Below, in pieces: positions 9,534 through 56,948 of a stretch of DNA of 64,000 bases. This stretch comes from an uncultured Mailhella sp. (GTDB lineage Bacteria > Desulfobacterota > Desulfovibrionia > Desulfovibrionales > Desulfovibrionaceae). A model generated the notes under the pieces. That model worked only from the letters and a program-made list of their open reading frames with translations, was not told the origin of the DNA and did no database searches. Each line of letters begins with the position of its first letter. The first letter of the stretch is position 1. The DNA lies in contig NZ_CALUYL010000001.1 in assembly GCF_944324995.1 (NCBI RefSeq), positions 124,001 through 188,000 on the forward strand, written 5' to 3'. The position numbers and the translations under genes were made by a program.

Positions 9534-12500
9534 TCACTCCATGCCGGAAGCGTCCTCCCGCGCCTCGTTCTCCCGGGAAAGACCGTATTTGCGCATTTTC
9601 GCGTACAGCGCGGAACGACTTATTTTCAGCACGGCCAGCGCTCCGTACCGGCCGTCGATGCGCCAGCCCGTCCGGCGAAGCGCGGCGAGGATGCATCGCT
9701 TTTCCGCCTCCTCCACGGAACAGACGGGCTCTTCCCGCTCCGCCGGAGGATCGTTGCGCCCGCTAAACGCCGCGCTTCTGACGGGCGCTTCATAGAAGCC
9801 CTCCTGAAAGGCGAGCGTGCGGCCGCCGCTGAGAATGACGGACTGCTCGACCACGTTGCGCAGCTCGCGGATGTTGCCCGGCCACGGCCACTGTTCGAGC
9901 AGACGGCAGTTGGCTTCGGAAAAATCCTGCACCACGTCGCGGCCGTGCCGGTGGGCAAAATGATGCAGGTAGTAGCGGGCCAGAGGAAGAATATCCTGAC
10001 GCCGTTCCCGCAGCGGCGGAATGTGGAGACAAATGACCGCCACCCGGTAATAGAGATCGGCGCGGAACGCGCCCGTGCGCACGGCCTCGCCGATGTTGCG
10101 GTTGGTGGCGGCCACCAGCCGGAAATTGATGCGTATGGGCCTTGTGCCGCCCACACGCAGAAAACTCCGCTCCTGCAGCACCCGCAGCAGCTTGGCCTGC
10201 CCCCTGGGACTCGCCTCCGTCAGCTCGTCCAGAAAAAGCGTGCCGTTCTCGGCAAGTTCCACCAGTCCAAGCTTGCTGTTCATGGCTCCGGTGAACGCGC
10301 CTTTTTCATGCCCGAAGAACTCGCTTTCAAAAAGCTCGTCCTGCAGGCTCGCCATGTTGATGGTCACAAGGCGGCCGCTTCTGCCGCTCCGCTCATGAAT
10401 GCGCCGGGCCAGCATTTCCTTGCCCACGCCGGATTCGCCGTTGAGCAGCACAGCCGCATCCGTGCCCGCCGCGTTGTCCACGTCCGCCAGAAAATTCCGC
10501 ATCGTCGGGGAAACCCATATCATTTCCCGCGTGCTCTCGCCCGGGGCGGAAACGCTCTGCGTGCGGCGTTCCGTTTCCAGCGTGAGCATGCACGGCCAGG
10601 TAAGCACCCGGGCTATGTCGCGCAGAAGCGTTTCGTCCAGCACCGCCCGCAGCTTTTCGGGAAACGTGCCCGCAAGGCAGAGCACGTATAATCCATAGGG
10701 CCGGCAGTCCAGCGGAAGCCCGACAAACATGCCCGGCACGCTCTTTTCGCCGTCCGTCACGCTGTCCAGAATGACCGGCTCCCCTTCCGCCACAAGTTCC
10801 GCCATTTCCTCCACCGTGGCGGGCCCCAGAAAACCTTCAAGAGCAGAGCCGCTTTTTTCCACAAGACGCAGCGGCGCGGATGGCTGAGAACGATGATACA
10901 GCCACCCCTCCGACGCGCCGAGCAGCCTTCCCGATTCCGTCAGCAGCATGCGGGAAAATTCCTCAAACGACAGCCCGGAACGCCGGGGCGCAAAATTGTC
11001 GCGGAACGCCTCCACCAGCGCGTGGGCGGAAACGGCGCCCTCTTCTCCCGCGTTCAGATACGACGGCACCAGCCGAAGCAGCCTGTCGGACCAGAAGAAC
11101 GGCTTCTGGTACCTGTAGGATCGCCAGGCTTCGTTGACGAGCAGCGCCGCCTCCTTCTCGTTCTCATCCAGCAGCAGCGAGGCCAGAAAAAGACGCGTCT
11201 GATCCGCTTCGAGCGTGTTGTGAATGGCGTCCAGCAGGGCAATGCTCCTGCGGTAGGCCTCCACGGCCCCGGCCTTTTTCCCCGCCCGTTCCAGCAGCCG
11301 CCCCTGCACGCGGAAGGCCACCCCGCGCAGCAGACGGTTCGGCCCCGAAAGACAACGGGCCAGCTCCTCTTCAAAGGAATAGCACGGCAGAGGCGGCAGT
11401 CCCTTTTCGTGCATGCAGGCCAGCAGTTCGAGAAACACGCCGTTGAGATACACCGGCCGCTGATACCCCTGCGCCTCGGCCTTGCGCAGGGCGGGCAGCA
11501 GCACCTTGAAGGCCGCCTCAACGTGCCCGGAAAACATGTGATAGCAGGCCAGATGACGCAACGTGGTCACGGCGCTGGCAATGTCCGTCTTCCTCGTTAT
11601 GCCGGTGAGGGCTATGTCCAGCTGTTCCAGCGCCTTTTCGCTCCTGCCCATGCGCAGATACACGAAGGCAAGCTGACTGCGCATGTTGCGCGAAAGCGAG
11701 GAGTCGCTGCTCACTTCGGCCTGCCGGAGTCTCGTGAGCAGAAGCCTCACCGCCAGATCGAAATCCCTGCGGTTGGCCGCCGCAAATCCCCAGTGCCGGG
11801 CATAGAACATTTCAAAGTAGCGGCGGCGCTGAATGCGCATTTTCCGGCTGGCGCGGGAGAAAAAGTTCATGGCCTGTTCGTAGTCGCCTTCCAGAAACGC
11901 GAAAATGCCGAGATAGGGCACGGCCGTCTCCACGAGAACAGGATCCTTCACCGTATCGAGCTCCGCCCTGCCCCGGGCCATGATTTCATGAAAATACGCG
12001 CTGTTGTGCTCGGGAATGTTGCACACGTTGAGCGAGCCTATGAGAAGATCCATCAGGGCCGTCTCTCCCATGTCTCCGGTGCCGAGCGCCGTTTCCCGCG
12101 CCTGAAAGAAGAACTGCGGAAGCCCGGGAATGAAGATGCCCGAACACACGATGAACAGATTGAGCTCCCGGCACAGCCCGAGAAAGCGCTTTATCTGCAA
12201 AAGCGAGGAAGGAGAAAGATTCCGCAGCCTCTCCAGCGCGAACATGAGCATGGCGCGCATGTCGTCCGTGGAAAGCGCACGGATGCGCCGCTCGCCCTGC
12301 TCCAGAAACGTTTCCAGAGCGCCCAGCTCGTCCCCTTCGGCAAGGCTGCGCAAAAAGCGCTCGAAGGGAGAGGTTCCGGCAAGAGAGCGCAGACGCGCGG
12401 CCGCCTCTTCGTGCCCGGCCAGCAGAACGTCCAGCGCCTGCCATTCCGCCGCTTCTTCTCCGGCCGGAGCAAAGCAGCCCCGACCCGCGGCCGAAGGTTC

Positions 12501-12611
12501 GAGTCCGGCCAGCTTCACCAGCATTTCAGGACGCCAGTGCCTTCCGAAAAGTTCCCGCAGAAACGCTCCCGTTTCCGTGCTGTTTTCCCAGTCCGTCTTC
12601 TGCTGCCGCAT
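9534..12611 (-). CDS. Very large sigma-54-dependent activator with TPR-like and GAF-like sensor region
   Basis: The 1025-residue enhancer-binding protein starts at the ATG at 12611 behind AGGAG/AAGGAG. Residues about 225-520 are repeated amphipathic helices resembling TPR or MalT-like repeats. Residues about 545-670 look like a GAF domain. The AAA+ domain spans about 695-925, with Walker A GESGVGKE (725-732), the sigma-54 contact loop GAFTGA (771-776) and Walker B TLFLDEL. A Fis-type helix-turn-helix ends the protein (about 969-1011). It is divergent from cassette 2, whose -24/-12 promoter lies at 12783-12798, and codirectional with cassette 1. It most likely activates one or both. The TPR-GAF sensor half is unusual for this class. 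Confidence 0.9.
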   Translation of the reverse strand: MRQQKTDWENSTETGAFLRELFGRHWRPEMLVKLAGLEPSAAGRGCFAPAGEEAAEWQALDVLLAGHEEAAARLRSLAGTSPFERFLRSLAEGDELGALETFLEQGERRIRALSTDDMRAMLMFALERLRNLSPSSLLQIKRFLGLCRELNLFIVCSGIFIPGLPQFFFQARETALGTGDMGETALMDLLIGSLNVCNIPEHNSAYFHEIMARGRAELDTVKDPVLVETAVPYLGIFAFLEGDYEQAMNFFSRASRKMRIQRRRYFEMFYARHWGFAAANRRDFDLAVRLLLTRLRQAEVSSDSSLSRNMRSQLAFVYLRMGRSEKALEQLDIALTGITRKTDIASAVTTLRHLACYHMFSGHVEAAFKVLLPALRKAEAQGYQRPVYLNGVFLELLACMHEKGLPPLPCYSFEEELARCLSGPNRLLRGVAFRVQGRLLERAGKKAGAVEAYRRSIALLDAIHNTLEADQTRLFLASLLLDENEKEAALLVNEAWRSYRYQKPFFWSDRLLRLVPSYLNAGEEGAVSAHALVEAFRDNFAPRRSGLSFEEFSRMLLTESGRLLGASEGWLYHRSQPSAPLRLVEKSGSALEGFLGPATVEEMAELVAEGEPVILDSVTDGEKSVPGMFVGLPLDCRPYGLYVLCLAGTFPEKLRAVLDETLLRDIARVLTWPCMLTLETERRTQSVSAPGESTREMIWVSPTMRNFLADVDNAAGTDAAVLLNGESGVGKEMLARRIHERSGRSGRLVTINMASLQDELFESEFFGHEKGAFTGAMNSKLGLVELAENGTLFLDELTEASPRGQAKLLRVLQERSFLRVGGTRPIRINFRLVAATNRNIGEAVRTGAFRADLYYRVAVICLHIPPLRERRQDILPLARYYLHHFAHRHGRDVVQDFSEANCRLLEQWPWPGNIRELRNVVEQSVILSGGRTLAFQEGFYEAPVRSAAFSGRNDPPAEREEPVCSVEEAEKRCILAALRRTGWRIDGRYGALAVLKISRSALYAKMRKYGLSRENEAREDASGME

Positions 12612-12670
12612 GCTCCTTCTCCTGTACTGACAAGCGCCCTGCGCACAGACGCAGGCCCGCTCATCGTAAC

Positions 12671-12712
12671 TGTATTTTTTACGCACAGCAATAAGACGTT
12701 TTGTATTTTTTA
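12671..12712. promoter_or_regulatory. Direct repeat, candidate activator site upstream of cassette 2
   Basis: TGTATTTTTTA followed two bases later by CAC occurs twice, at 12671-12681 and 12702-12712. The copies are 31 bases apart, about three helical turns. They lie 70-110 bases upstream of the -24/-12 promoter, a normal distance for enhancer binding. Assignment to the divergent sigma-54 activator is an inference. Confidence 0.45.
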
Positions 12713-12782: not shown

Positions 12783-12798
12783 TGGCACGCTTCTTGCT
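12783..12798 (+). promoter_or_regulatory. Sigma-54 (-24/-12) promoter of cassette 2
   Basis: TGGCACGCTTCTTGCT matches the consensus TGGCACG-N4-TTGC[A/T] at every defined position, with GG and GC separated by ten bases. It is 65 bases upstream of the first gene of cassette 2 and next to a divergent sigma-54 activator gene. Confidence 0.92.
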
Positions 12799-12862: not shown

Positions 12863-14503
12863 ATGATTCAGAGTATCGACCCCGCAGCCTGTACCGGATG
12901 CGGCACATGCACCAAAACATGCCCGCTCGACGTTTTCCGTCTTGACACGCAGCAGGAAGAGCTGTCCCCCTGCATGGCGGCCTGTCCCGCCGGCGTGGAC
13001 ATCCGCAGGAACAACTATCTCATCCAGCAGGGCAGGCTCGACGAGGCGGCGGAAAACTTCCTGAACGCCAACCCGTTCCCGGCCATCACCGGACGCGTCT
13101 GCTTCCATCCCTGCGAATCCAGGTGCTCCCGCGCCAAGGTGGATCAGGCCGTGAACATCAACGCCATCGAACAGGTGCTCGGCGACCGCGGCATGACGCT
13201 TCCGCAGAAGGAAAAGGTGCAGCGGCACATCACCAAGGTGGCCGTGGTGGGCTCCGGTCCCGCCGGACTGTCCTGCGCGTGGTTCCTGGCCAGCATGGGC
13301 TATCCCGTCACGGTATTTGAAGCCCGTCCCTTCCCCGGCGGCATGCTGCGCTACGGCATTCCCGCCTATCGCCTGCCCGACGCCGTGGTCACGGGGCAGA
13401 TTGAACGCCTGGAACGCCTGGGCGTGACGTTCTGCTGCAACACCCTCGTGGGCGACAACGCCGACGTCAGTCTCGCCGATCTGAAAAAGCGCGGCTTCAA
13501 GGCCGTCATGCTCGCTCCCGGCGCAAGCGCCGCCAAGAAGGTGGACATCGAGGGCGCGGACGCCGAAGGCGTTCACTGGGGACTCGATTTTCTGCGCGCC
13601 TGCCGTGACGATGAAAAACCGGAAATTTCCGGCGACGTGGTGGTCATCGGCGGCGGCGACGTGGCCGTGGACGCGGCCATCAGCGCCAAGCGCCTCGGCG
13701 CGGCCCGCGTGTACATGGCCTGCCTTGAAAGCCGCGACGCCATGCCCGCGTACCCCCACAATCAGAAGGACGCCGAAAACGAAGGCGTGGAATTCCACTG
13801 CGGTTTCGGCCCGGCGCGCATTCTCACCGAAGACGGCCACGTTTCCGGCATAGAGCTGCACGCCTGCACCCGCCTCAAGGACGAGGAAGGACGCTTCGCC
13901 CCGCTCTTCGACGCCGACTCAACGCTGCATCTTGCCGCCTCCCACGTCATTTTCGCCATCGGCCAGACTCCGGAACTGAGCGGCTTTGCCGGCGAGGTAA
14001 CGGTGGAGCGCAACCGCATCGTCGTGAACGACGTCACCTTCGCCACGTCGGCATGGGGCATTTTCGCCGCGGGCGACGCGGCTTCCGGCCCGGCCTCCGT
14101 GGTGGCCGCCATTGCGGGCGGCCGTGAATGCGCCTGCTCCATCGACCGCATGCTGAAAGGCGCGGACCTCACCGGCGAACGCGGCAGAAAGCGCCCCTGC
14201 GTGCCCGAAGACAAACTGCCCGGCGAAGGCATCCGCCACGAAGTGCGGCACGAACGCGCCGCGCTTCCCGCGGACCCGGAACATCCCTTTGCGGAACACA
14301 CGAAGCCTCTGGACATGGAAGCCTGCTTTGCCGAAGCGCTGCGCTGCATGACCTGCGGCAGCAAATCCCGCATCACCTACACCGACGACTGCATGACCTG
14401 CTTCAACTGCGAGCTCCACTGCCCCTCCGGTGCCATTTTCGTTCATCCCTTCAAAGAACGTTTTGCCCGAACCCTTGACCAGATTGAAGTCGCCAAGAGC
14501 TGA
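12863..14503 (+). CDS. GltD-like NAD(P)H oxidoreductase flanked by two halves of a ferredoxin
   Basis: The 546-residue protein starts behind AAGGAG. Residues 10-21 hold a [4Fe-4S] motif (CTGCGTCTKTCP). The next ~90 residues are the GltD-type Fe-S entry region, with CMAACPAGVD and CFHPCESRC. Two Rossmann sites follow: VVGSGPAGLSCAWFLASMG near residue 130 for FAD and VIGGGDVAVDAA near 268 for NAD(P)H. The C-terminus has CMTCFNCELHCP (about 513-524). It probably passes electrons between NAD(P)H and the flavoprotein encoded next. The first and last motifs correspond to the two clusters of the separate AprB-like ferredoxins elsewhere in the window, as if GltD were inserted in the middle. A glutamate synthase role is unlikely, as there is no GltB. 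Confidence 0.88.
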   Translation: MIQSIDPAACTGCGTCTKTCPLDVFRLDTQQEELSPCMAACPAGVDIRRNNYLIQQGRLDEAAENFLNANPFPAITGRVCFHPCESRCSRAKVDQAVNINAIEQVLGDRGMTLPQKEKVQRHITKVAVVGSGPAGLSCAWFLASMGYPVTVFEARPFPGGMLRYGIPAYRLPDAVVTGQIERLERLGVTFCCNTLVGDNADVSLADLKKRGFKAVMLAPGASAAKKVDIEGADAEGVHWGLDFLRACRDDEKPEISGDVVVIGGGDVAVDAAISAKRLGAARVYMACLESRDAMPAYPHNQKDAENEGVEFHCGFGPARILTEDGHVSGIELHACTRLKDEEGRFAPLFDADSTLHLAASHVIFAIGQTPELSGFAGEVTVERNRIVVNDVTFATSAWGIFAAGDAASGPASVVAAIAGGRECACSIDRMLKGADLTGERGRKRPCVPEDKLPGEGIRHEVRHERAALPADPEHPFAEHTKPLDMEACFAEALRCMTCGSKSRITYTDDCMTCFNCELHCPSGAIFVHPFKERFARTLDQIEVAKS

Positions 14504-14517
14504 ACCCGGAGGATATC

Positions 14518-16236
14518 ATGAAAGAAACCAGAGGATACGAATACACGACCGACCTTCTCGTCATCGGCTGCGGCTTCAGCGGCATGTGGGCCGCCATGCG
14601 GGCCAAGGACTTTCTTGACGACGTGCTCGTGGTGGACAAGGGCCCCCGCGACTGGGGCGGACTCGGCGGACTTTCCGGCGGCGACATGATCGTCAAGCAG
14701 CCCGACATGAACCTCGACGACCTGCTCGACGACCTCGTGTACTACTACGACGGCCTGGCCGATCAGCGCATTCTCGGCCAGATTCTCACCCAGTCCTACG
14801 AGCGCTTCATGGACTTCGAAAACTGGGGACACAAGTTCGTGCGCAACGACAAGGGCGAACTGTGCTTCATTCCTCAGCGCGCGCTCGATCACATGCGCTA
14901 CTACTATTATCATCCCTACGGCATGGGCGGCATTGAAAAGGCCCGTCTGCTCAAGCAGGAATGCGAAAAGCGCGGCGTGCGCCGCCTCGGCCGCACCGTG
15001 ATCACCGACGTCATCACCGACGGCGACCGCGTCACCGGCGCGGTGGGCTTTCATGCGCAGAGCGGCGTTCCGGTCTTCATCAAGGCCCGCGCCGTGCTGC
15101 TCGCCACCAACACCGGCGGCTGGAAGCCTTCCTACCATCAGAACACGCCGGCGAGCGAAGGCGTGAGCATCGCCTGGAACGCGGGCTGCGCCATGCGCAA
15201 CTTTGAATTCTGGAAGGTGTGGAACGTGCCCGTGGATTTCGCCTGGGAAGGTCAGACCGGCCTGCTGCCCAAGGGCGCGCGCTTTCTCAACAACAAGGGC
15301 GAGGACTTCATGCGCAAGTATTCGCCGAAGTTCGGCGCCAAGGCCGATCCGCACTACAACACCCGCGGCATGGTGTGCGAAGTGCGCGCGGGCAACGGCC
15401 CCATCGTGTTCGACTGCAGCCAGATGAAGCCCGAAGACGTGGAAACCATGCGTCCGCGCGCCGGATGGATGGGCCTCAACGACAAGAAGCTGCGCGCCAT
15501 GGGCATAGACTTCTTTGCCCAGAAGCTCCAGTGGATGCCGCAGGTGCGTCACACCTACGGCGGCATTGTGGCCGACCTCGACGGCTCCACGGCCGTGAAG
15601 GGTCTTTACGCCGCAGGCCTTGCGCGCAACCCCGATCCCGGCGTGTACATGGGCGGCTGGGCCACCTGCATCACCGCCACCACCGGCTACTGCGCGGGCG
15701 AAGCCGCCGCGCACTTCGTGCAGGGACACGACGCCGTGGCCTTCGACAGAGCCTACGCCGAAGACAAGGTGAACGGCCTGCTCAAGTATCTGGGCAGAGA
15801 CGGCATCGCCCCCAAGGACGTCATCGCCGACATGCGCGAAGTGATGAGCGCCCCGGACATCGCCCTCATGAAGACGGGGCAGGGCCTCACCCGCGGCCTC
15901 GACCGCGTGGCCGAAGTGCGCGAGGAATTCGCTCCGCGCATGGGAGCCCGCGACGCCCACGAGCTGGCCAAGCTCTTCGAGGCGCAGTCCACCATTCTGC
16001 TCACGGATCTCAGCCTCACCGCCGCCCTTACCCGCAAGGAATCGCGCGCGGGCCACTTCCGCGAAGACTTCCCCGAACGGGACAACGCCCACTGGCTCAA
16101 GTGGATCGAACAGAAAATGGTGGACGGCAGACGCGAACTGCACACCGTGCCCGTGCCCGTCAACGAATATCCCATCAAGCCCTACCGTTACTACATGGAC
16201 AACTTCACCTGGCCTGAACACCGGCATGCAGGCTAG
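14518..16236 (+). CDS. FAD flavoprotein of the AprA/FrdA superfamily, cassette 2
   Basis: The 572-residue protein has an N-terminal FAD site, LLVIGCGFSGMWAAMRA, at about residues 13-29, a second FAD contact region around GLYAAGLARNPDPGVYMGG, and the tail pattern TRKESRAGHFREDFP. This matches the cassette 1 enzyme, although overall identity is clearly limited. There is no signal peptide. The start is 14 bases after the oxidoreductase stop, with a GGAGG site. It is expected to receive electrons from, or give them to, the upstream GltD/ferredoxin fusion and to act on a substrate imported by the downstream permease. It could be a reductase of an unsaturated acid or a dehydrogenase; the sequence does not decide. 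Confidence 0.88.
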   Translation: MKETRGYEYTTDLLVIGCGFSGMWAAMRAKDFLDDVLVVDKGPRDWGGLGGLSGGDMIVKQPDMNLDDLLDDLVYYYDGLADQRILGQILTQSYERFMDFENWGHKFVRNDKGELCFIPQRALDHMRYYYYHPYGMGGIEKARLLKQECEKRGVRRLGRTVITDVITDGDRVTGAVGFHAQSGVPVFIKARAVLLATNTGGWKPSYHQNTPASEGVSIAWNAGCAMRNFEFWKVWNVPVDFAWEGQTGLLPKGARFLNNKGEDFMRKYSPKFGAKADPHYNTRGMVCEVRAGNGPIVFDCSQMKPEDVETMRPRAGWMGLNDKKLRAMGIDFFAQKLQWMPQVRHTYGGIVADLDGSTAVKGLYAAGLARNPDPGVYMGGWATCITATTGYCAGEAAAHFVQGHDAVAFDRAYAEDKVNGLLKYLGRDGIAPKDVIADMREVMSAPDIALMKTGQGLTRGLDRVAEVREEFAPRMGARDAHELAKLFEAQSTILLTDLSLTAALTRKESRAGHFREDFPERDNAHWLKWIEQKMVDGRRELHTVPVPVNEYPIKPYRYYMDNFTWPEHRHAG

Positions 16237-16338
16237 TTCCGTCCGCAGCGGAACGATATCGGCGCGGCCGTCCCCCGGCGGCCGCGCCTCTGCCGCGCAT
16301 CCTGCGTGAAAAATATCCCATCTTTTTCGAGGAAAAGC

Positions 16339-17802
16339 ATGAGCACCGCAACTCCCGCGCACAAACGCCCCCTCTCCCTTTCGTACTACATTCACACCGC
16401 CGTCTGCCTCATCATCATGTTCGGCGTGGGGCAGCTTCCGCCTCTCGCCCCGCTCACGCCCCTGGGCATGAATCTTGTCGGCATCTTCCTCGGCGTGCTC
16501 TACGGATGGATCTTCATCGAAATCGTCTGGCCCAGCCTCGCCGGACTGCTGGCCATGATGCTCATCGGCGGCATGACTCCGGTAAAGCTGCTCAACAACA
16601 GCTTCGGCCACCCCATCGTGCAGATGATGTTCTTCATCTTCGTGTTCTGCGCCACCATCAACTACTACGGCCTCTCCAAGTTCATTTCGCTCTGGTTCAT
16701 CACGAGAAAGTGCGTGTGCGGAAAACCGTGGCTGTTCACCTTCACGTTTCTGGCCTCCATGTTCATTCTCGGCGCGCTCACCAGCGCCTCGCCCGCAGCG
16801 CTCATAGGCTGGAGCATCCTGTACGGCGTGTGCGAAGTGTGCGGCTACAAGCGCGGCGACGGCTACCCCACCATGATGGTGTTCGGCATCGTGTTCGCCA
16901 CCCAGATAGGCCAGTCCATGATTCCCTTCAAGCAGGTGGCGCTCACCGTGTTCAGCGCCTATGAAACCATGTCCGGCAGCGGCATAGACTACGCGAAGTA
17001 CATGATCATCGCCTGCCTCATCTGCGTGCTCTGCTCGCTGTTCTTCATTCTCATGGGCAAGTACGTGTTCAAGCCCGACATGTCCAAGCTGCGCGACCTC
17101 AGAGCCGACGATCTGGACAGCGAAGGCGCGCTCAACCTCAACAACGTGCAAAAGACCATTCTCGTCTTTCTGTTCATGCTGGTGCTCCTGCTGCTCGCGC
17201 CGAGCTTCCTGCCCGCCGACTTCTTCCTCACCCGATTCCTCAAGGCCATAGACAACACCGGCGTGGTCATTCTGCTCGTCACCATCATGGCCTGCATCCG
17301 TGTGGACGGAAAGCCCCTGCTCAACTTCAAGGTCATGGTCGATTCCGGCGTCACCTGGGGCATCGTGCTGCTGCTCGCCTTCGTGCAGCCGCTCACCATA
17401 GGCATGGCCGCGCCGAGCAGCGGCATCACCGACTTCCTCATGGGCCTCATCATGCCGCTCTTCGGCGAAAGCTCTCCCATGACCTTCGCCCTCATCATCG
17501 GCTTCGGCGCCATGCTGCTGACGCAGGTCATGAACAACGGCGCCGTGGGCGTGGTGCTCATGCCCGTCATCTACAGCTTCAGTCAGGCCACCGGCATGGC
17601 TCCCGAAATTCCGCTCATCATGGTGGTCATGTGCGTGCACTTCGCCTTCCTCACCCCCGCCGCCAGCGCCAGCGCCGCCCTGCTGCACGGCAACGAATGG
17701 AGCAACACCGCCGTCATCTGGAAGACCGCGCCCATCGCCATCATAGGGGCCTACCTTTCCACCGCCGTAGTCACCATGCTTCTCGGTCCCGTGCTCTTCT
17801 AG
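16339..17802 (+). CDS. SLC13/DASS-like anion permease, cassette 2 transporter
   Basis: The 487-residue polytopic membrane protein has about 12 hydrophobic spans. It resembles the divalent anion:Na+ symporter or citrate/succinate permease superfamily. Two related halves are visible, with polar re-entrant segments such as GALTSASPAALIGWS in the first and LTPAASASAALLHGNEW near the end. These sit where SLC13 proteins bind carboxylate. The ATG at 16339 follows GAGGAAAAG; an upstream in-frame ATG at 16306 lacks a site. Its position as third gene behind the -24/-12 promoter suggests that it imports the substrate of the flavoprotein, perhaps a dicarboxylate. The substrate is inferred from family only. 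Confidence 0.82.
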   Translation: MSTATPAHKRPLSLSYYIHTAVCLIIMFGVGQLPPLAPLTPLGMNLVGIFLGVLYGWIFIEIVWPSLAGLLAMMLIGGMTPVKLLNNSFGHPIVQMMFFIFVFCATINYYGLSKFISLWFITRKCVCGKPWLFTFTFLASMFILGALTSASPAALIGWSILYGVCEVCGYKRGDGYPTMMVFGIVFATQIGQSMIPFKQVALTVFSAYETMSGSGIDYAKYMIIACLICVLCSLFFILMGKYVFKPDMSKLRDLRADDLDSEGALNLNNVQKTILVFLFMLVLLLLAPSFLPADFFLTRFLKAIDNTGVVILLVTIMACIRVDGKPLLNFKVMVDSGVTWGIVLLLAFVQPLTIGMAAPSSGITDFLMGLIMPLFGESSPMTFALIIGFGAMLLTQVMNNGAVGVVLMPVIYSFSQATGMAPEIPLIMVVMCVHFAFLTPAASASAALLHGNEWSNTAVIWKTAPIAIIGAYLSTAVVTMLLGPVLF

Positions 17803-56873: not shown

Positions 56874-56932
56874 GCCATCTCCTCCTTATCGCTGCTTCCA
56901 AAACAGCACATTTCTTTCCACCAATTTGTGAA

Positions 56933-56948
56933 GCAAAAAACATGCCAA
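56933..56948 (-). promoter_or_regulatory. Sigma-54 (-24/-12) promoter of the cassette 3 operon
   Basis: On the minus strand TTGGCATGTTTTTTGC runs from 56948 to 56933, followed by T. The match to TGGCACG-N4-TTGC[A/T] is perfect except for T in place of C at one position. GG and GC are ten bases apart. It is 60 bases upstream of dctP, beside a divergent sigma-54 activator gene. Confidence 0.9.

Follow-up and report, generated by a model that had tools for sequence, protein, structure and literature searches.

The gene analysed here lies in a 64-kb stretch of DNA (hereafter the window) and encodes a protein of 546 residues, called below the nested protein, in which a GltD/NfnB-type module (residues ~33–499) is enclosed by two short ends that each carry a single cluster motif (Table 1). 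The gene starts with ATG, with the ribosome site AAGGAG upstream, and a single reading frame holds CTGCGTCTKTCPLDVF at the N-terminus and CMTCFNCELHCPSGAI at the C-terminus, the two CxxCxxCxxxCP motifs beginning at residues 10 and 510. Pfam analysis of the protein detected Fer4 (residues 5–24), Fer4_20 (35–109) and Pyr_redox_2 (125–420); Fer4 was scored for the N-terminal motif only, and the GltD flavin module was found without a second FAD domain in the 546 residues. The best NCBIfam model, PRK12771/NF009410 (a GltD-type family), covers residues 29–531 and aligns over profile positions 42–535 of 566, with a score of 435.9 bits that is below its cut-off of 516. The reading frame and the Pfam domains thus bear out the preliminary description of this DNA, which had reported a [4Fe-4S] motif at either end and a GltD-type NAD(P)H domain between them.

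Table 1. Coordinates of the nested gene, its neighbours in the window and its shortened relatives.
Feature	Coordinates	Strand	Remarks
Sigma-54-dependent activator	9534..12686	-	TPR region, AAA, Fis-type HTH; divergent; probable regulator
Sigma-54 (-24/-12) promoter-like site TGGCACGCTTCTTGCT	12783..12798	+	~65 bases before the nested gene, upstream of the operon
Nested protein gene	12863..14503	+	546 aa: ferredoxin half 1, GltD/NfnB-type NADH module, ferredoxin half 2
Ferredoxin half 1	12863..12952	+	Residues 1–30; Cys10, 13, 16, 20; beta 2–5, alpha 15–19, beta 25–28
Fer4_20 region	12953..13189	+	Residues ~31–109; Pfam PF14691; Cys37, 41, 80, 84, 88, Glu103
FAD/NAD(P)H two-Rossmann module	13235..14122	+	Residues 125–420; Pfam PF07992; Cys-Leu-Glu at 287–289
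Cys495-x2-Cys498 (RCMTCG)	14345..14356	+	Predicted to supply the other two distal-cluster ligands
Ferredoxin half 2	14360..14461	+	Residues 500–533; Cys510, 513, 516, 520; beta 501–504, alpha 515–518, beta 525–527
Partner flavoprotein	14518..16236	+	572 aa; FrdA/SdhA/AprA superfamily (SdhA/FrdA/NadB/AprA); starts 14 bases past the nested gene
CitMHS/DASS-type carboxylate transporter	16306..17802	+	Probable substrate importer
Shortened nested proteins	L055:9424-10581; L065:2797-3954; L091; L100; L109:7921-9090		Missing exactly the NAD(P)H domain
Relative L029	2222-3256	-	344 aa; own genome, contig C4; second nested type

The partner flavoprotein lacks, at the aligned places, the His and Arg that we take to be the succinate/fumarate site residues of this flavoprotein family, and it scores 38.2 bits with the aprA model TIGR02061, for which the cut-off is 641.75. 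Without these catalytic residues of fumarate reductases, calling the partner an organic acid reductase is guesswork based on its superfamily and on the transporter; the adjacent transporter suggests that the substrate is an organic anion. The likely role of the nested protein is in a soluble system that takes electrons from NADH to reduce an organic acid after its import. Flavoproteins of the FrdA/AprA superfamily number about fifteen in this genome of 2.9 Mb, and several of them are accompanied by a transporter and a regulator of their own; they form a large repertoire of putative organic-acid reductases.

The promoter-like site TGGCACGCTTCTTGCT is the sole exact match to the sigma-54 consensus in the 64 kb of the window (0.01 expected), and 5 of 22 related genes are likewise preceded by a site of this type, against a chance expectation of 0.02 per gene. 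A site with one mismatch lies at 56932-56947 (-) of the window, upstream of the TRAP transporter and ferredoxin genes of another cassette (cassette 3); about one such site per window is expected by chance. A GC-rich inverted repeat occupies the interval between the flavoprotein and transporter genes (16237-16305, +), and the transporter gene has a GTG start and no clear ribosome site.

Cluster ligands, electron donor and shortened relatives

The module resembles NfnB and GltD in its Fer4_20 region, its FAD and NAD(P)H module and the Glu at the place of a proximal-cluster ligand. In NfnB, the distal cluster is bound by Cys39, 42, 47 and 100 and the proximal cluster by Cys51, 90, 96 and Glu117 (PMC7596348). 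Aligned to NfnB, the nested protein presents Cys37 and Cys88 at distal positions and Cys41, 80, 84 and Glu103 at proximal positions, and the N-terminal CxxC of the NfnB/GltD distal cluster is absent from it. By analogy with NfnB (PMC7596348), these residues of the Fer4_20 region are predicted to bind the proximal cluster and to provide half of the ligands of the distal one. The module ends, on its C-terminal side, with an RCxxC segment in 107 of 109 relatives that have no N-terminal CxxC, and this segment is absent from the three sequences that have the N-terminal CxxC. This distribution suggests Cys495 and Cys498 as the remaining ligands of the distal cluster, whose CxxC would then be C-terminal in the nested protein instead of N-terminal as in NfnB/GltD; both ends of the insert would thus meet at one cluster. 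Fifteen Cys and Glu103 are invariant in 21 aligned proteins (the nested protein and 20 more, including one from Chloroflexota), which should be enough for four clusters.

In NfnB, the triplet YRR is a mark of NADP specificity (PMC7596348). It is replaced by CLE at residues 287–289 of the nested protein and kept in the Chloroflexota relative, so that NADH is the likely donor of the nested protein, judging by this substitution.

Several relatives have lost parts of the module. The five shortened nested proteins (Table 1) lack the NAD(P)H domain (residues ~228–372) and, by inspection, two FAD-site features (the Asp of AGD, and YR), and they keep all cluster ligands; in two cases (L055 and L065) a complete nested cassette immediately precedes the shortened gene. 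In L029, the NAD(P)H domain, the FAD motif GxGxxG and Cys41, 80, 84 and Glu103 have all been lost, and Cys37, 88, 495 and 498 are retained together with the ferredoxin Cys. Since the shortened proteins lose the NAD(P)H and FAD sites and L029 also the proximal-cluster ligands, the losses begin on the donor side and proceed inwards, in agreement with a linear chain from NADH through FAD, proximal cluster and distal cluster to ferredoxin. L029 adjoins a flavoprotein gene and, by eye, a TctA-like transporter gene. A copy in Desulfovibrio piger (L063:5350-6389) is broken by a frame change and an internal loss, its remaining pieces being ~80% identical, and an intact copy of the second type is present elsewhere in that genome (L166).

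Ferredoxin homology of the two ends

Both ends of the nested protein match the same stand-alone ferredoxin ORF of the same genome (E-values of 1.4e-5 for the N half and 5.5e-11 for the C half). This ferredoxin of 90 residues, encoded on contig C8, matches residues 1–30 and 501–534 of the nested protein, with 17/28 and 22/28 identical residues, respectively, and is the best match of both ends among all ferredoxins tried. The correspondence is specific for each half: the N half scores 100 with motif 1 and 52 with motif 2 of the ferredoxin, and the C half 129 with motif 2 and 49 with motif 1. The ferredoxin gene stands in the slot of the nested gene, beside a fourth flavoprotein of the family (45% identity), so that inserted and uninserted ferredoxins share one operon position. 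Where the stand-alone protein reads RLNEQGKAFIAYPDDC, the nested protein reads RLDT...GltD...SKSRITYTDDC, so that the insert falls at the turn linking ferredoxin strand 2 to strand 3. Moreover, MAFFT, unaided, divides seven stand-alone ferredoxins between both ends of the nested protein.

The ends had previously been likened to clusters 1 and 2 of the cassette 3 ferredoxin. The order of motif 1 and motif 2 stands, and the closest relative is instead the C8 ferredoxin: identities to the cassette 3 ferredoxin are 12/22 and 8/22, and it was set aside as the parent for this weaker match. Neither are the ends better matched by ordinary ferredoxin domains linked in tandem to GltD, a possibility raised at the same time, with 10/18 and 10/22 identical residues. 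The label AprB-like was not upheld other than as a loose, positional one, the C8-type stand-alone homologue scoring far higher with MvhB (polyferredoxin; 99 bits) and FwdF (75 bits) than with AprB (30–34 bits).

A first AlphaFold model, computed from an alignment of the 21 nested sequences only, had a good core and pLDDT values below 50 at residues 505–527. A second model, from 41 sequences including the seven stand-alone ferredoxins as split by MAFFT, reached a pLDDT of 90.2 and a pTM of 0.88, with pLDDT values of 75–83 in the ferredoxin halves; owing to those ferredoxins in its alignment, it is not fully independent of the sequence comparison. Each end is modelled as a beta-alpha-beta half (strand 2–5, helix 15–19, strand 25–28; strand 501–504, helix 515–518, strand 525–527), and together they have the predicted secondary structure of a 2[4Fe-4S] ferredoxin (four strands, two helices) interrupted by the insert. 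A Foldseek search against the PDB returned matches to the GltD core only, its sequential alignment being of a kind that would not reveal a split ferredoxin. With the two ends identified as halves of one stand-alone ferredoxin, the common operon slot, the MAFFT division and the second model, the insertion of a GltD domain into a small ferredoxin, as originally proposed, is well supported.

Distribution of nested proteins

The window comes from a Desulfovibrionaceae genome with members of Mailhella as its closest named relatives. The architecture is not confined to this locus. A search recovered two more full nested proteins in the same genome (55% identity), each preceding a paralogue of the flavoprotein, and 20 further proteins could be aligned. 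In a scan of contigs, a homologous flavoprotein gene directly follows all 19 of the 19 complete nested genes of the Mailhella type, five shortened nested genes and seven stand-alone ferredoxin genes. In the Chloroflexota relative L062, the flavoprotein gene is directly upstream of the nested gene; of 201 Chloroflexota genomes searched, only two matched at E 1e-150. In the deltaproteobacterial relative L074, the flavoprotein encoded upstream comes with a separate ferredoxin, and little of the contig is left beyond the nested gene. Many other Desulfobacterota have a second nested type (CILDNLRL ... CWFCLPCEVECP), and a flavoprotein of the FrdA/AprA superfamily adjoins it in 13 of the 14 loci read. 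Uninserted, inserted and decaying forms are all found within one genus, and partly within one genome.

In a tree of the module cores, the 11 sequences of the window's type, among which the Chloroflexota one is not counted, group together with full support, and so do the 8 sequences of the second type. The deep branches are weak, and a single clade of all nested cores, a group named after the sequences had been seen, is rejected by the AU test (p 0.0082). One origin of all nested forms was rejected on this basis; repeated insertion, or movement of the module at a later stage, is likely.

Two further arrangements of the same parts were observed. On contig C8, next to the stand-alone ferredoxin cassette and beside another flavoprotein gene, a gene encodes GltD in tandem with a complete C-terminal ferredoxin (L026:9901-11718, -). 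In a protein of 900 aa (L126:1369-4068, -), GltD lies between the cluster motifs of a ferredoxin that represents a third host.

Proposed electron path and comparison with known systems

The explanation that we find fairly probable as a whole is that an NADH module inserted in the ferredoxin of a flavoprotein delivers electrons from NADH through a series of clusters to this partner and on to an organic acid. A GltD/NfnB-type NADH oxidoreductase would have entered a small 2[4Fe-4S] ferredoxin, at the turn that joins strand 2 to strand 3, and the host ferredoxin would have been the electron-transfer subunit of a cytoplasmic flavoprotein of the FrdA/AprA superfamily. NADH would pass a hydride to the FAD of the insert, and single electrons would then move to the proximal cluster (Cys41, 80, 84 and Glu103), to the distal cluster built from both ends of the insert (Cys37, 88, 495 and 498) and to the two ferredoxin clusters, one bound by Cys10, 13 and 16 with Cys520 and the other by Cys510, 513 and 516 with Cys20. 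These would reduce the FAD of the partner, which in turn would reduce an organic acid that the adjacent transporter imports. Because one cluster would be built from the two ends of the insert, a relay would lie at the insertion point itself and the ferredoxin halves would still be able to close; if true, this swap of ligands, with the distal CxxC at the C-terminal end, would account for the success of the insertion. Direct wiring from NADH to the partner flavoprotein is probably what the ligands and the gene order reflect. Domain insertion would in this manner have given a soluble reductase access to another source of electrons, and the findings point to a large number of NADH-linked reductases, apparently independent of cytochromes, in gut and sediment Desulfobacterota.

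Electrons might also flow the other way, the flavoprotein oxidising its substrate with NAD+ as acceptor, or the clusters might serve additional partners. GltD/NfnB modules can run their reaction either way, as DsrL does (PMC7596348), and the partner lacks the catalytic residues of fumarate reductase; however, every nested gene is strictly paired with a flavoprotein of its own, and in the same genome the cassettes also include a transporter. Such pairing fits a dedicated reductase, though an oxidase would still be compatible with it, and we regard reversal or a hub as rather unlikely.

A circular shift of a tandem fusion, in which GltD was joined, as in DsrL, to a complete C-terminal ferredoxin and one motif later moved to the N-terminus, would give an end product that looks and works alike. 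Tandem GltD-ferredoxin proteins do occur in the same genome and have the RCxxCG segment too, but the ends of the nested protein are far closer to the stand-alone ferredoxin than to the tandem domains, most tandem cores fall in clades apart from the nested cores and the nested gene occupies the operon slot of a ferredoxin, which makes this course of events improbable. That each end is an independent single-cluster appendage, without a joint ferredoxin, could be argued from the four Cys per end, the low confidence of the first model in the C-terminal half and the Fer4 score at the N-terminal motif only, but is very improbable given that one end corresponds specifically to motif 1 and the other to motif 2 of a single ferredoxin, that the second model has four strands at ferredoxin positions and that both halves are kept together in the shortened and gutted proteins.

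An insertion of GltD into a ferredoxin has already been published for HdrA; new here are the host and the variant. In type III HdrA of archaea, a GltD domain lies between the halves of a 2[4Fe-4S] ferredoxin domain, is predicted to take NADH and was proposed to have been inserted twice separately (PMC12054007, 2025). In type III HdrA as in the nested protein, the GltD module is flanked by the cluster motifs of one ferredoxin; the two differ in the host, which is a ferredoxin domain inside HdrA, a bifurcating flavoprotein, in the former and a small separate ferredoxin subunit in the latter, and the thioredoxin-reductase-like FAD core that surrounds the ferredoxin of HdrA is absent from the nested protein. 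Open-access literature on GltD with AprA/AprB or fumarate reductase yielded no description of a small flavoprotein-partner ferredoxin as host.

Other known systems share fewer of these traits. DsrL, an NAD(P)H:acceptor oxidoreductase (PMC7596348), likewise combines a GltD-type module with extra ferredoxin clusters that feed a separate redox enzyme, but its two-cluster ferredoxin, which serves DsrAB, is complete and C-terminal, past a linker of ~100 residues, whereas the nested protein has one half per end. The closest solved relatives of the core (33–35% identity) are the transhydrogenase subunits StnC and NfnA (PMC10482914; PDB 8oh5, 9n5u, 9bov), which also have the RCxxCG segment and a GltD region within a larger iron–sulfur subunit; StnC in particular has GltD inside a NuoG-like subunit (PMC10482914). 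Unlike the nested protein, they have this NuoG-like host and are part of an electron-bifurcating complex, and the proximal-cluster ligand predicted to be Glu in the nested protein is Lys in StnC. APS reductase AprBA and the archaeal PAPS reductase (8a8o) likewise pair a small two-cluster ferredoxin with a flavoprotein of the FrdA superfamily; AprB has no NADH module, the nested-type ferredoxin is not specifically AprB and the partner is not AprA.

We tentatively consider a broader reading, in which this GltD subfamily is a recurrent plug-in for hairpin turns of two-cluster ferredoxins (the small flavoprotein-partner ferredoxin, HdrA and at least one other), wired at once on arrival and later decaying from the NADH domain to the FAD and then the proximal cluster, with the relay clusters left for another donor. 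Insertion into different ferredoxins would be possible because the distal cluster would be built from the two ends of the module itself; we hold this reading to be about evenly balanced, leaning slightly against. In many Desulfobacterota, frames of ~1400–1500 aa (L122, L134, L148 and others) encode HdrA-type proteins with GltD between the cluster motifs of their ferredoxin domain, and these proteins correspond, in bacteria, to the type III HdrA of archaea.
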